Below are positions 56,964 to 63,412 of a stretch of DNA of 64,000 bases, piece after piece. The position numbers and the translations under genes are program-made. Positions within the stretch are counted from its first letter, which is position 1. The number at the start of each line of letters is the position of its first letter. This DNA comes from Capnocytophaga felis (GTDB lineage: Bacteria; Bacteroidota; Bacteroidia; Flavobacteriales; Flavobacteriaceae). Where the stretch lies: positions 62,001 to 126,000 of the forward strand of contig NZ_BLBC01000014.1 in the NCBI RefSeq assembly GCF_009684755.1. Direction: 5' to 3'. The notes beneath the pieces were generated by a model, which saw only the letters and a list, made by a program, of their open reading frames with translations, searched no databases and had not been told where the DNA came from.

Positions 56964-57385
56964 TGTTTTTACCAAAAAGATCAAACTTAGAAAATTATCA
57001 TTATAAATTTCTTCCCGTTAGAAAATAAAAAAATATACGTATAAAAAATAATTTATCGATTAGCTTCATCATTAAAAAATACTCTTACACTTTCGGAAAT
57101 ATCAAATAACATAGCAAATAAAACACTAAGGAAATTAATAAATTCAAGGTTAAAAAATTTCACTTTTCGAGTGTAGTAAGTTTGAAAGTTCGCAGTAAAA
57201 TAAATTATTTTTTAGTGTTAATTTCATATTCTTAAACTTTCAGTGCTTTTGATTTAAGGTAAAAAAGCAAATATCAGAAAGTCATAATCTGTAATTATTA
57301 AAGTCTATTTTTATCTTATTTTACTGGTATAAAAATGGCTGAAAAATAGCATTTATAATTAATTGAAAGTCAATAAGCAAAAAAA
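56964..57385. other. non-coding AT-rich part of a 720-bp gap
   Basis: No open frame with a plausible protein and no recognisable RNA gene. Short inverted pieces such as ACTTTC/GAAAGT recur. I can support nothing more specific. Confidence 0.4.
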
Positions 57386-57486
57386 CGTACGTCAGAAAAT
57401 AAATTTCTTGACGCTAAGAAAAAAATTTCCTGACGTCAAGAAGTTTCTAATCATACGTCAGTAATTTCATAATAGTACGTATCGAC
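57386..57486. repeat. TGACG-rich nested inverted repeats
   Basis: Four TGACG or CGTCA cores lie in about 75 bp: 57388-57395, 57408-57414, 57430-57440 and 57454-57461. They can pair in alternative ways: TTCTTGACG with CGTCAAGAA (57406-57414 with 57434-57442) or CGTCAGAAA with TTTCTTGACG. The cluster is followed by GTACGTAT and then the rlmD terminator. See the finding. Confidence 0.6.
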
Positions 57487-59265: not shown

Positions 59266-60402
59266 ATGAATATAGCAATTGTTTGTTATCCTACCTTTGG
59301 CGGAAGTGGGGTAGTGGCAACCGAATTAGGATTGGCTTTAGCTCGGAAAGGGCATCAAGTACATTTTATAACATACAGTTACCCAGTACGTTTGGATTAT
59401 TTAGAGGTGAATATTCATTTTCACGAGGTACACGTTGAGGAATATCCGTTATTCCATTATCAGCCGTATGAATTGGCACTTTCCAGCAAGATGGTTTCTG
59501 TGATAAAAACTTACCAGATAGATGTTTTGCACGTACATTATGCCATTCCGCACGCTTATGCAGGTTATATGGCAAAACAAATGCTAAAAAAAGAAGGGAT
59601 TGAAATTCCGATGATTACAACCTTGCACGGAACGGATATTACCTTAGTGGGAAATCATCCGAATTACAAACAAGCCGTAACATTTAGCATCAATGAATCG
59701 GATGTGGTAACCTCTGTTTCAGAAAGTTTAAAGCAAGATACGTTGCGATTGTTCAATATTGAGAAAGAAATTTTTGTAATCCCGAATTTTATTGATATTG
59801 AGAAAGATATACACACAGCTCCGTGCAAACGTTCGATAATGGCACAAAAAAACGAACGAATTATCACCCATATTAGCAATTTCCGTAAGGTAAAACGAAT
59901 CCCTGATGTGATTGATGTTTTTTACCGAGTGCAACAAAAAATTCCTTCCAAATTGATACTGGCCGGAGATGGCCCTGAAAGAGAATTTGCCGAGAATAAA
60001 TGCAAACAGTTAGGCATCAAAAATAAAGTACTCTTTTTAGGAAACACGTTAGATGTAGATAGATTATTGTGTGCTTCCGATTTATTTTTATTACCTTCTG
60101 AATCAGAGAGTTTCGGGCTTTCTGCTTTGGAGGCAATGGCATCGGGCGTACCTGTAATTTCCTCAAATGCAGGAGGTTTATGTGAAGTAAATGAAAATGG
60201 TTTTTCAGGATTTTTAAGTCCTATCGGTGATATTAAAGATATGAGCAAAAATGCTATCTACATTTTGGAAGATGAAAATCGTTTGGCTCAATTCAAAAAA
60301 CAAGCAAAAATTTCTGCTAAAAGATTTGATGAACGAAAAATTATTCCGATGTACGAGGAACTTTATGAAAAAACTATAAAAAATACATTAAATAAAAATT
60401 AA
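59266..60402 (+). CDS. bshA: N-acetyl-alpha-D-glucosaminyl L-malate synthase
   Basis: 378 aa. BshA is a GT4-type retaining glycosyltransferase that makes GlcNAc-malate, the first step of bacillithiol. The start MNIAIVCYPTFGGSGVVATELGLALARKGHQVHFIT is diagnostic. VHYAIPHAYAGYMAKQML and TTLHGTDITLVG follow, and LPSESESFGLSALEAMASGVPVISSNAGG holds the sugar-nucleotide site. bshB and bshC are not in the window. The thiamine-binding gene begins 21 bp after its stop. Confidence 0.95.
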   Translation: MNIAIVCYPTFGGSGVVATELGLALARKGHQVHFITYSYPVRLDYLEVNIHFHEVHVEEYPLFHYQPYELALSSKMVSVIKTYQIDVLHVHYAIPHAYAGYMAKQMLKKEGIEIPMITTLHGTDITLVGNHPNYKQAVTFSINESDVVTSVSESLKQDTLRLFNIEKEIFVIPNFIDIEKDIHTAPCKRSIMAQKNERIITHISNFRKVKRIPDVIDVFYRVQQKIPSKLILAGDGPEREFAENKCKQLGIKNKVLFLGNTLDVDRLLCASDLFLLPSESESFGLSALEAMASGVPVISSNAGGLCEVNENGFSGFLSPIGDIKDMSKNAIYILEDENRLAQFKKQAKISAKRFDERKIIPMYEELYEKTIKNTLNKN

Positions 60403-60423: not shown

Positions 60424-60684
60424 ATGAAAGTATCAGTAGAACTGACATTCAGTCCGTTACAAGATGATTTTGAGCAACCTATCATTCATTTTATTAAAAA
60501 GCTACGAGCTTCAGGATTAAAAGTGCTTGAAAATCCGTTAAGTACACAAGTTTATGGTGATTATGATAAAGTAATACATACACTTACCGTTGAAATAAAG
60601 GAAGTGATGGAACTCGTTGAACGTGGATTGATGTATGTAAAAATTGTAAAATCAGATAGATACGACTATGAGCCACATTTTTGA
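60424..60684 (+). CDS. Thiamine-binding MTH1187/YkoF-like protein
   Basis: 86 aa. Matches the thiamine-binding (DUF77) family: MKVSVELTFSPLQDDFEQPIIHFIKKL, SGLKVLENPLSTQVYGDYDKV, then LTVEIKEVMELVERGLMYVKIVKSDRYDYE. A single ferredoxin-like fold that forms oligomers and can bind thiamine or related pyrimidines. The stop is embedded in the start of pnuC with 17 bp overlap, so the two are translationally linked. No TPP riboswitch is seen upstream. Confidence 0.85.
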   Translation: MKVSVELTFSPLQDDFEQPIIHFIKKLRASGLKVLENPLSTQVYGDYDKVIHTLTVEIKEVMELVERGLMYVKIVKSDRYDYEPHF

Positions 60685-61342
60685 TTGGTTTTTTGCTCAA
60701 TACAAAGGTGTTGAAGCACATTTTGTTGTGTTAGAAATCATTGGTGTGTGTTTTGGTCTTTTAAGTGTTTATTTCAGTAAAAAGCGAAACATTTGGGTAT
60801 ATCCCACAGGAATTATCAGTACGGTAATTTTTGTGTATTTACTTTGGGTTAGTCGGCTTTTCGGAGATATGCTTATCAATGCTTATTATACTATTATGAG
60901 CATTTATGGTTGGATTCTTTGGGCAAAAAGCAGTAAAGACAACATACATATTGAAGTTTCAAAAACCACTAAACGTGATTGGCTGATTAGCTTAGGATTA
61001 GCTGTTTTTAGCTGGTTGTTTGTAACGGGAGTTTACCTCTTAAAACCTTACATAAATAGTGGATTTTCATCTGACGAGATTTCCTTTGATTTTCAACACT
61101 TTACTTGGGTAGATTGGACAGATATTTTCACAACCTCCATTTTCTTGGTTGGGATGTGGTTAATGGCTAAACGAAAAATTGAAAATTGGATTTGCTGGAT
61201 TATCGGAGATGTTATTTCAGTTCCGCTATATTATCATAAAGGGCTTGTATTCAGCTCTTTTCAATATTTTATTTTCACCATAATTGCAATTGCTGCTTAT
61301 TTTGAATGGAAAAGAAACTTGAACAAATCAAAAGTAAAATAG
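60668..61342 (+). CDS. pnuC: Vitamin/nucleoside transporter, PnuC family
   Basis: 224 aa with about seven membrane helices. The PnuC pattern is visible: LEIIGVCFGLLSVYFSKKRNIWVYPTGIISTVIFVYLL, then MLINAYYTIMSIYGWILW, and NWICWIIGDVISVPLYYHKGLVFSSFQYFIF. These proteins import nicotinamide riboside (PnuC), thiamine (PnuT) or riboflavin (PnuX). Neighbours point to NR or thiamine: a thiamine-binding protein upstream and a NadR-like kinase downstream. Substrate is unresolved. Confidence 0.9.
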   Translation: MSHIFDWFFAQYKGVEAHFVVLEIIGVCFGLLSVYFSKKRNIWVYPTGIISTVIFVYLLWVSRLFGDMLINAYYTIMSIYGWILWAKSSKDNIHIEVSKTTKRDWLISLGLAVFSWLFVTGVYLLKPYINSGFSSDEISFDFQHFTWVDWTDIFTTSIFLVGMWLMAKRKIENWICWIIGDVISVPLYYHKGLVFSSFQYFIFTIIAIAAYFEWKRNLNKSKVK

Positions 61343-61872
61343 TTCGTGTGGCTTTTGTAGGACCTGAGTGTACAGGAAAAACAACAATTAGTCAGACCCT
61401 TGCTAAAGATTTCCAAACAGAATGGGTGCCTGAATTTATGCGAACGTACCTTCAAAAAAAATGGGACGAAAAACAGGAAACTTGTACTTGGGATGACCTC
61501 GAAATCATTGCTTTAGGACAAATTCTATCGGAAAATGAAAGTATTCAAAAAGCAAATAAAATTATTTTTTGTGATACAAATTTGCTTGAATTAATGATTT
61601 ATTCGTATATTTACTACGGAAAATGTCCTACACAAATTGAGAAATATGCTCTTGAAAATCATTATGATATCGTTTTTTTAACGGATATTGATGTTCCTTG
61701 GCAGGCAGATGATTTACGTGATAAACCTAATGAACGCGAATTTATGTTTTCCAAGTTTAAGCAAATACTTGATGAACACAACATCAAATACATAGTAATA
61801 ACAGGCAACCTTGAAAAACGTTTAAAAACAGTAAAAGAGGTTGTTCATAAAATATTAAAAAACAATGAGTAA
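61306..61872 (+). CDS. NadR-like kinase (ATP-binding; nicotinamide riboside or thiamine kinase)
   Basis: 188 aa. Walker A is GPECTGKTT (residues 19-27). EWVPEFMRTYLQ, IIFCDTNLLELMIYSYIYYG and DDLRDKPNEREFMFSKFKQILDEHNIKYIVI correspond to the ribosylnicotinamide-kinase domain of NadR. It presumably phosphorylates the vitamin brought in by PnuC, trapping it. The first 37 bp overlap pnuC and the last 8 bp overlap the DUF4301 gene (ATGAGTAA). Confidence 0.88.
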   Translation: MEKKLEQIKSKIVRVAFVGPECTGKTTISQTLAKDFQTEWVPEFMRTYLQKKWDEKQETCTWDDLEIIALGQILSENESIQKANKIIFCDTNLLELMIYSYIYYGKCPTQIEKYALENHYDIVFLTDIDVPWQADDLRDKPNEREFMFSKFKQILDEHNIKYIVITGNLEKRLKTVKEVVHKILKNNE

Positions 61873-63412
61873 ACTTACAGCAAAAGACCGGCAATTGTTG
61901 GCTAAAAAAGGAATTTCAGAAGAAATGCTCGAAAGCCAATTAGAACTTTTCAAACAAGGTGTTCCTCCGATTGAACTGCAAGCTGCTGCTACTATCGGAA
62001 ATGGAATTTTATCCTTCTCAAAGGAAGAAACAGCCAAATATGCAGCTATCTATCAAAAGAAAAAGAAAGGTATTTCTATTTTAAAATTTGTTCCTGCCTC
62101 GGGAGCTGCAACCCGAATGTTCAAATCTCTTTTCGCTTTCAAGGATAATTTTAATCCAGAAAAAGAATCATTCAAGGCTTACATCAACCGAAAAAGTGAC
62201 AAAGAAATTGAAACCTTTTTTGAAGGATTGGAAAAATTTGCTTTTTATCCTATTTTAATGGATTACATAGCAAAAAATATTCCCGATTTTCATACTCAAA
62301 ATGAAGATAATCAAAAACATACAATTGTTTCCATTTTACTTGGTGAAAACGGATTAAACTACGGAAATTTACCAAAAGGATTACTTCCTTTCCATAAACA
62401 TTCTGAAAAAATAGTTACTCCTTTTGAGGAACATTTCAGAGAATCAGTAATGTATGCTTCAGGTGAAGATATCGCACACTTGCATTTCACTATTACTGAG
62501 CAACATACAGGTGCTTTCAACAAGGAATTGAATGAAATTAAAGATAAACTTGAAAAAAGGTATAACATCAAATTTGATGTGAACTTTTCGTATCAAAAAC
62601 CAAGCACAGACACTGTTTCCGCTACTGAGGACAATGAATATTTCCGCGATGAGAACGAAAACTTGCTTTTCCGTCCGTCAGGTCACGGAGCTTTACTTGA
62701 TAACCTTAACGAAGTGAATGCTGATATAATCTTTATAAAAAATATTGATAATGTGGTAGTTAAAAAATACACAGATGAAACCGTTTTTTATAAAGAGGCA
62801 TTGGCAGGAAAATTACTTGAAATTCAGTCAGAAGTTTTTCATATACTGAAACGTATTGAAAATGATAAAGTTAAAAAGAAAGAAGTAAAGAAATTATTGA
62901 ACTTTTTGAGAGAAATCAATATCTATGTGCCTGATTATCTGTATAAATTCAGAAGACGTTATGCTCTTGAGTTCATTAAAGAACAACTGAACCGCCCAAT
63001 TCGCGTATGCGGAATGGTTAAAAATGAGGGAGAACCTGGCGGAGGTCCTTTTTGGGTGAAAGATGCCAACGGGAACTTAAGTTTACAGATTATCGAATCT
63101 GCACAAGTTGATTTAAATAATCCTCAACAAAAAGAAATTTTCCAGCAATCGACACACTTTAACCCGGTGGATTTAGTTTGTGGGACAAAAAATTTCAAAG
63201 GAGAAAAATTTGATTTACAACAGTTTACTGATCCAAAACAAGCTTTCATTACAGGAAAAACATATATGGGAAAACCGCTTAAAGCTTTGGAACGACCAGG
63301 GTTATGGAATGGTTCAATGGCAAATTGGATAACTGTTTTTGTTGAAGTCCCATTAATTACTTTCAATCCGGTAAAAACCGTAAACGATTTGCTGAAAAAA
63401 ACACATCAGTAA
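61865..63412 (+). CDS. DUF4301 protein, possible nucleotidyltransferase fold
   Basis: 515 aa. Conserved DUF4301 segments: IELQAAATIGNGIL, KFVPASGAATRMFKSLF (residues 74-90), NLPKGLLPFHKH (168-179), LHFTITEQH (206-214), FRPSGHGALLDNLNEVNADIIFIKNIDNVVV (269-299) and RVCGMVKNEGEPGGGPFWV near 379-397. The glycine-rich opening loop, the PKGLLPxH motif and the GHGxLLDNL...IKNIDN run recall UDP-sugar pyrophosphorylase-type nucleotidyltransferases, so a GT-A-like nucleotidyltransferase is plausible. Family function is unknown. Start overlaps the kinase gene, implying joint function. Confidence 0.85.
   Translation: MSKLTAKDRQLLAKKGISEEMLESQLELFKQGVPPIELQAAATIGNGILSFSKEETAKYAAIYQKKKKGISILKFVPASGAATRMFKSLFAFKDNFNPEKESFKAYINRKSDKEIETFFEGLEKFAFYPILMDYIAKNIPDFHTQNEDNQKHTIVSILLGENGLNYGNLPKGLLPFHKHSEKIVTPFEEHFRESVMYASGEDIAHLHFTITEQHTGAFNKELNEIKDKLEKRYNIKFDVNFSYQKPSTDTVSATEDNEYFRDENENLLFRPSGHGALLDNLNEVNADIIFIKNIDNVVVKKYTDETVFYKEALAGKLLEIQSEVFHILKRIENDKVKKKEVKKLLNFLREINIYVPDYLYKFRRRYALEFIKEQLNRPIRVCGMVKNEGEPGGGPFWVKDANGNLSLQIIESAQVDLNNPQQKEIFQQSTHFNPVDLVCGTKNFKGEKFDLQQFTDPKQAFITGKTYMGKPLKALERPGLWNGSMANWITVFVEVPLITFNPVKTVNDLLKKTHQ

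Follow-up and report, generated by a model that had tools for sequence, protein, structure and literature searches.

The window, by which we mean the whole 64,000-nucleotide stretch of Capnocytophaga felis DNA that was analysed, belongs to a genome of 2.88 Mb and carries the following run of genes:

59266-60402, + strand: bshA, bacillithiol GlcNAc-malate synthase (TIGR03999, 568 bits)
60424-60684, + strand: Thiamine_BP/YkoF-type protein, 86 aa (PF01910 at 24.4 bits, also Ykof)
60668-61342, + strand: PnuC-family transporter, 224 aa (NMN_transporter, PF04973, 185 bits)
61306-61872, + strand: NadR RNK-like P-loop kinase, 188 aa (AAA_28, PF13521, 147 bits)
61865-63412, + strand: DUF4301 protein, 515 aa (PF14134, 726 bits)

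The overlaps of 17, 37 and 8 bp that the first-pass annotation had noted between the last four ORFs, all on the + strand, are reproduced exactly by the ORF coordinates. The 17-bp overlap between the Thiamine_BP and PnuC genes recurs in 59/59 related loci that have both, that between the PnuC and kinase genes measures 37-49 bp in 74 of 77 related loci, and PnuC, kinase and DUF4301 follow one another in 77 loci, nearly all from Flavobacteriaceae. Given this conservation, the gene order and overlaps are not due to chance. In 16 of the 77 loci, the kinase and DUF4301 form a single open frame (15 Flavobacterium, one Wocania), a fusion that arose twice separately. Downstream of the operon, most Flavobacteriaceae have arfB and then a TonB receptor gene. 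The 3' end of bshA, a gene left out of the first-pass coordinates, lies only 21 bp upstream of the Thiamine_BP gene, and bshA may be co-transcribed with the operon here; among the loci checked, it is found upstream in L002-L004 only, a neighbour seen solely in Capnocytophaga, and it lies outside the conserved module. Elsewhere in the window, the intergenic stretch 57360-57480 holds repeated ACGTCAG, TTCTTGACG and CGTCAAGAAG words that resemble small inverted repeats, flanked by long non-coding AT-rich DNA on one side and a minus-strand RNA methyltransferase-like ORF on the other.

The transporter, at 185 bits against a PF04973 cut-off of 27.3, groups with Bacteroidota PnuCs linked to thiamine pyrophosphokinase (TPK) or to TPP riboswitches, apart from the nicotinamide riboside (NR) PnuCs of E. 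coli and phages. The genomic context that identifies PnuT, a TPP switch or thiamine genes, is found in related loci, at the adjacent receptor, and lies outside the window operon, at which no riboswitch was found. Judged by this grouping, the protein is most likely PnuT, a predicted thiamine transporter. An Asp or Asn near the end of TM6 was considered as a discriminator between NR and thiamine PnuCs and was dropped, as the Flavobacteriaceae vary at this position and some have Asn. A TPP-aptamer match immediately precedes a further PnuC-family gene in two genomes (G385:C22:123298-123992 and G210:C1:1296040-1296737); these TPP-linked PnuCs group apart from the operon PnuC, so that a second thiamine permease may exist in some genomes.

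The small first protein falls 0.5 bit under the PF01910 gathering score of 24.9, and the same profile matches 34 of 35 of its relatives at E <= 0.01. Its AlphaFold2 model (pLDDT 88.5) matches TM0486, MJ1052, SP2199 and YkoF with E values of 9e-8 and weaker; the top PDB fold matches are TM0486, MJ1052, SP2199, YBL001c and MTH1187, with YkoF lower, so that the modelled fold is the ferredoxin-like one of MTH1187 and YkoF. From this fold, the 86-aa protein is probably a cytosolic binder of thiamine or a thiamine precursor.

The receptor gene downstream of the operon gives a further indication of the cargo. A TPP-aptamer core stands directly before it in 73 of 80 related loci, where shuffled sequence gives an expectation of 0.05; the seven loci without it comprise five from Capnocytophaga and two whose contigs are short or cut off at the end, the operon being absent from one of these two. 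The Rfam model RF00059 matched at the receptor in all five related loci scanned (35-50 bits, E 8e-7 to 0.004), covering model positions 1-105 with the conserved core, and these scores lie below the gathering score of 54.3, the copies being without the model's P3 extension. Consistent with this, a search of 11 related loci at the gathering threshold returned no riboswitch, and a permissive search gave sub-threshold TPP aptamers; further genomes also show the aptamer at the receptor. In the genome of the window itself, the orthologous receptor lies on contig 5, away from the operon, with a TPP match of 42.5 bits about 97 nt upstream, and contig 11 has a second match of 64.7 bits ahead of thiC, thiE, thiD, thiG and thiH. 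The receptor that adjoins pnuT and TPK in G230 (family f11), where the genes are arranged as reported for Bacteroides, shares 37-44% identity with these receptors. In B. thetaiotaomicron, deletion of OMthi or of pnuT impairs growth in a thiamine-dependent manner given the right background, and PnuT produced in E. coli transports thiamine (PMC5613172).

Control by TPP would suit any thiamine vitamer, so that the cargo could instead be HMP or hydroxyethylthiazole, both thiamine precursors, with the kinase acting on that precursor. YkoF-type proteins have indeed been discussed as binders of pyrimidine moieties. Against this, the window's own genome makes both moieties and has ThiD for HMP, the Bacteroides homologues of the receptor and of PnuT act on thiamine (PMC5613172), and the distribution of the kinase tracks that of TPK, as set out below. 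A precursor as cargo is on these grounds distinctly improbable.

In the PDB, the kinase comes closest to the RNK domains of NadR (profile E 1e-27). Against TIGR01526, the model for bifunctional NadR, it scores 106.9 bits where 341 are required, matching profile positions 164-319 only, and the PnuC-adjacent kinases form a clade of their own (support 0.91-0.92). PF04263 (TPK) has no match in the window kinase or anywhere in its genome. Among 64 genomes, which were picked for DUF4301 and not for TPK or kinase genes, TPK is absent in 20 of the 24 where such a kinase lies next to PnuC, and 3 of the other 40 lack it (Fisher p ~7e-10, which overstates independence since the genomes are related); the genomes were counted by hand on the basis of listed coordinates, one PnuC-kinase pair with a 489-bp gap being counted as adjacent. 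This anti-correlation recurs in five families outside Flavobacteriaceae. The exceptions are four genomes that have TPK and an adjacent kinase together (three Flavobacteriaceae and, elsewhere, the one with the 489-bp gap) and three TPK-minus genomes without an adjacent PnuC-kinase pair. No TPK-minus genome had a ThiK above cut-off, and ThiL was found in 31/31 genomes tested. The window's own genome contains thiC, thiE, thiD, thiG, thiH and ThiL, as well as PncB for NAD, and no TPK. The simplest reading of these patterns is that the PnuC-adjacent NadR-like kinase is a predicted thiamine kinase that would provide thiamine monophosphate (ThMP) for ThiL; it may accept NR as a second substrate. In a published survey of gut genomes, the thiamine salvage enzymes named are ThiK, ThiM and ThiN (PMC6593275). 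No NadR-like thiamine kinase is described in the literature searched, an absence that is no proof of novelty.

A second subfamily of AAA_28 P-loop kinases (GGPSTGKST / GGPGTGKSS) occurs in several Flavobacteriaceae (L175, L171, L179, L180). As the second copies recovered belong to a different subfamily from the PnuC-adjacent kinase, they were set aside. Trp256 and Tyr292 of HiNadR, which we take to be its NR-stacking residues, were likewise considered as proof of substrate; they are absent in the window kinase but also in NadR 9x6f, and were not used.

It also counts against thiamine that the kinase belongs to the NadR family of NR kinases, and that PnuC is known to be paired with NR kinases. 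The operon might then serve NR salvage, with PnuC importing NR, the kinase converting it to NMN, and DUF4301 or NadD adenylylating NMN to NAD; a fused kinase-DUF4301 protein would be an analogue of NadR. That the nearest relatives of the kinase are NadR RNK domains, that the fusion parallels that of NMNAT to RNK and that the window's own genome has no NadA are all in keeping with this idea. Yet 63 of the 64 genomes, those with DUF4301 among them, have NadD, and, with NadD and PncB both present in the window's genome, its NAD supply does not depend on the kinase even though NadA is absent. NR salvage also leaves both the TPP aptamer and the TPK pattern unexplained, and the properties of DUF4301 described below speak against it as well; we regard it as rather unlikely. 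The first-pass annotation had proposed an operon for uptake and phosphorylation and left thiamine and NR tied as its object. The first part is supported, but the tie is not: the aptamer at the adjacent receptor, the homology of that receptor, the apparent replacement of TPK by the kinase and the fold of the Thiamine_BP protein together favour thiamine over NR as the cargo.

The fourth protein matches PF14134 at 726 bits (cut-off 27) over positions 2-507 of 507, and its best relatives are from Capnocytophaga (80-93% identical). In the literature searched, no function is described for DUF4301, which receives one incidental mention. An AlphaFold2 model built from 43 sequences (residues 1-515, pLDDT 89, pTM 0.88) matches UDP-GlcNAc, UDP-glucose and UDP-sugar pyrophosphorylases (UAP/UGP/USP) with a Foldseek E value of 3e-9 and VIA-align Z scores of 18-21 (best ~21; rmsd 3.1-4.0 A over 320-345 residues), the UDPGP fold spanning the catalytic core and the C-terminal part. 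Only the fold search produced such matches: sequence searches of the PDB with DUF4301, single or as a profile, gave nothing, the window protein has no match to PF01704 (UDPGP) at E up to 1, and in eleven genomes this profile touches DUF4301 C-termini at 9.6-18.6 bits against a cut-off of 22. The motifs PASGAATRMF, NLPKGLLPFH, GHGALLDNL and IKNIDN, in which the first-pass annotation had seen a likeness to UDPGP-type nucleotidyltransferases, are all present, and the modelled fold and conserved catalytic-type residues bear this likeness out. Invariant in 75 DUF4301 proteins from several classes are S79-G80, R84, P170-K171, Q244, G273-H274-G275, N293, D295-N296, F432-N433 and K504, which lie in the nucleotide loop PASG..R, PK, Gln244, GHG, N-x-D-N, FN and PVK...D; their roles are presumably those of the UGP/UAP residues, an assignment made from motifs and family knowledge rather than from coordinate superposition. 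We infer from model and motifs that DUF4301 is probably an active nucleotidyltransferase, and by analogy its Gln and Gly-His-Gly suggest UTP as the NTP. A UDPGP fold with this uridine-type Gln and Gly-His-Gly, and no NMNAT fold, argues against the NMN adenylylation that NR salvage would ask of it, as does the occurrence of DUF4301 in genomes without PnuC or a NadR-type kinase.

DUF4301 is found in 71 of 392 sampled Bacteroidota genomes and in no viral contigs. The first-pass annotation had made its proposal depend on DUF4301 occurring with pnuC or kinase genes beyond this lineage; in the neighbourhood survey, none of 32 loci outside Flavobacteriaceae had PnuC, the Thiamine_BP gene or the kinase nearby (within ~9 kb, less at contig ends), nor were any other neighbours consistently co-conserved there, which speaks against that proposal. 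In several of these genomes, PnuC and NadR-type kinases are missing altogether. Conversely, the Flavobacteriaceae genera g3, g6 and g13 have an identical operon without DUF4301. Its solitary occurrence outside the family and its absence from such operons thus mark it as an addition to the operon and rule it out as an obligatory pathway step. Nor would it be the last step to TPP, for which a kinase, ThiL, and not nucleotidyl transfer is needed. With such operons known, and with NadD and ThiL present, the three-step pathway ending in DUF4301 that had been suggested for this locus is not supported, and what ties DUF4301 to the pathway is linkage and fusion.

Several loci show the arrangement in altered form. 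In Capnocytophaga canis (L005:6001-7551) and a Flavobacteriaceae MAG (L015:5998-7548), DUF4301 has no PnuC, kinase or Thiamine_BP gene upstream, indicating that DUF4301 can remain when the rest of the operon is lost. In the Flavobacterium-like genus g2, three genomes have PnuC followed by DUF4301 with no kinase match between them. In the same genus, the DUF4301 of G328 (L222:1504-3366) is fused, at the place of the fused kinase, to ~110 residues without a kinase match, perhaps what is left of a kinase domain or what has replaced it, and at G289:C54:1491357-1492843 (L149), where TPK is present and the adjacent kinase absent, an in-frame TAA splits DUF4301 in what looks like pseudogenisation.

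DUF4301 may be no more than a bystander. On this view it would be a free-standing housekeeping enzyme that uridylylates a sugar-1-phosphate-like substrate, and its co-transcription with the operon, like its fusion to the kinase by loss of a stop codon, would imply no common pathway. Its solitary state in the 32 loci, its presence in several families without PnuC or kinase, the Flavobacteriaceae operons that are whole without it and its retention where the adjacent kinase is lost (L147, L149, L150) all fit this, whereas the two separate fusions, in Flavobacterium and Wocania, and the near-universal linkage within Flavobacteriaceae do not; we hold the matter to be evenly poised. A bystander role for DUF4301 would leave thiamine salvage by the other three genes untouched. 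Alternatively, DUF4301 might transfer a nucleotidyl group to ThMP, giving a nucleotide-thiamine diphosphate, so that the fused protein would make a thiamine-based signal or storage nucleotide. Adenylated thiamines have been reported from bacteria, and such a compound would be their relative, but we consider this proposal highly improbable.

For the first three genes, a thiamine salvage module in which the NadR-like kinase replaces TPK or ThiK is the explanation we think likely. Thiamine would cross the outer membrane through the TonB receptor under TPP riboswitch control, which adjoins the operon in most Flavobacteriaceae and lies elsewhere in the window's own Capnocytophaga genome, and would enter the cytosol through a PnuT-type facilitator. 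There, the small binding protein may hold free thiamine, and the kinase, standing in for TPK/ThiK, would trap it as thiamine monophosphate, which ThiL would convert to TPP. DUF4301, joined to the operon in Flavobacteriaceae, would couple an NTP to a phosphorylated substrate, as predicted for a UDPGP-type enzyme; though twice fused to the kinase, it would be dispensable for TPP formation. If this is true, many Bacteroidota without TPK and ThiK have their missing thiamine kinase in a family now labelled as NR kinases, and genome-based predictions for vitamins B1 and B3 in oral, marine and gut bacteria would be corrected. DUF4301, a Bacteroidota family, would gain a predicted fold, candidate catalytic residues and a few candidate substrates.

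The system most like this one is OMthi-pnuT-tnr3 of Bacteroides (TPK; BT2390, BT2396-BT2397), with which it shares a homologous TonB receptor with a TPP riboswitch, a PnuC-family permease and an adjacent salvage kinase. It differs in that a NadR RNK-like kinase takes the place of TPK, Thiamine_BP and DUF4301 genes are added, and the receptor follows arfB or, in Capnocytophaga, lies elsewhere. With the RNK domains of NadR (HiNadR 1LW7, L. lactis NadR 6GYE), the kinase shares the P-loop kinase fold, Walker A, DTD/DTN and lid-type (D)DLRD motifs and can be aligned over the whole domain, but it is free-standing, has no NMNAT domain, falls in a separate clade and has a thiamine-type neighbourhood. 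DUF4301 resembles the UDPGP-type pyrophosphorylases (UGP, UAP/AGX, USP) in fold over ~330-340 residues, including the C-terminal part, and in its glycine-rich loop, PKG, GHG, NxDN, FN and PVKxxxDL motifs, whereas its identity to them is 13-19%, it stays below the PF01704 cut-off, its loop is substituted (PASGAATRM) and it constitutes a separate family of ~500 aa, PF14134. Finally, the proposed chemistry, from thiamine to ThMP to TPP, is that of ThiK and ThiL in E. coli, where, however, ThiK, not found here, is aminoglycoside-phosphotransferase-like and unrelated to the NadR-like kinase.
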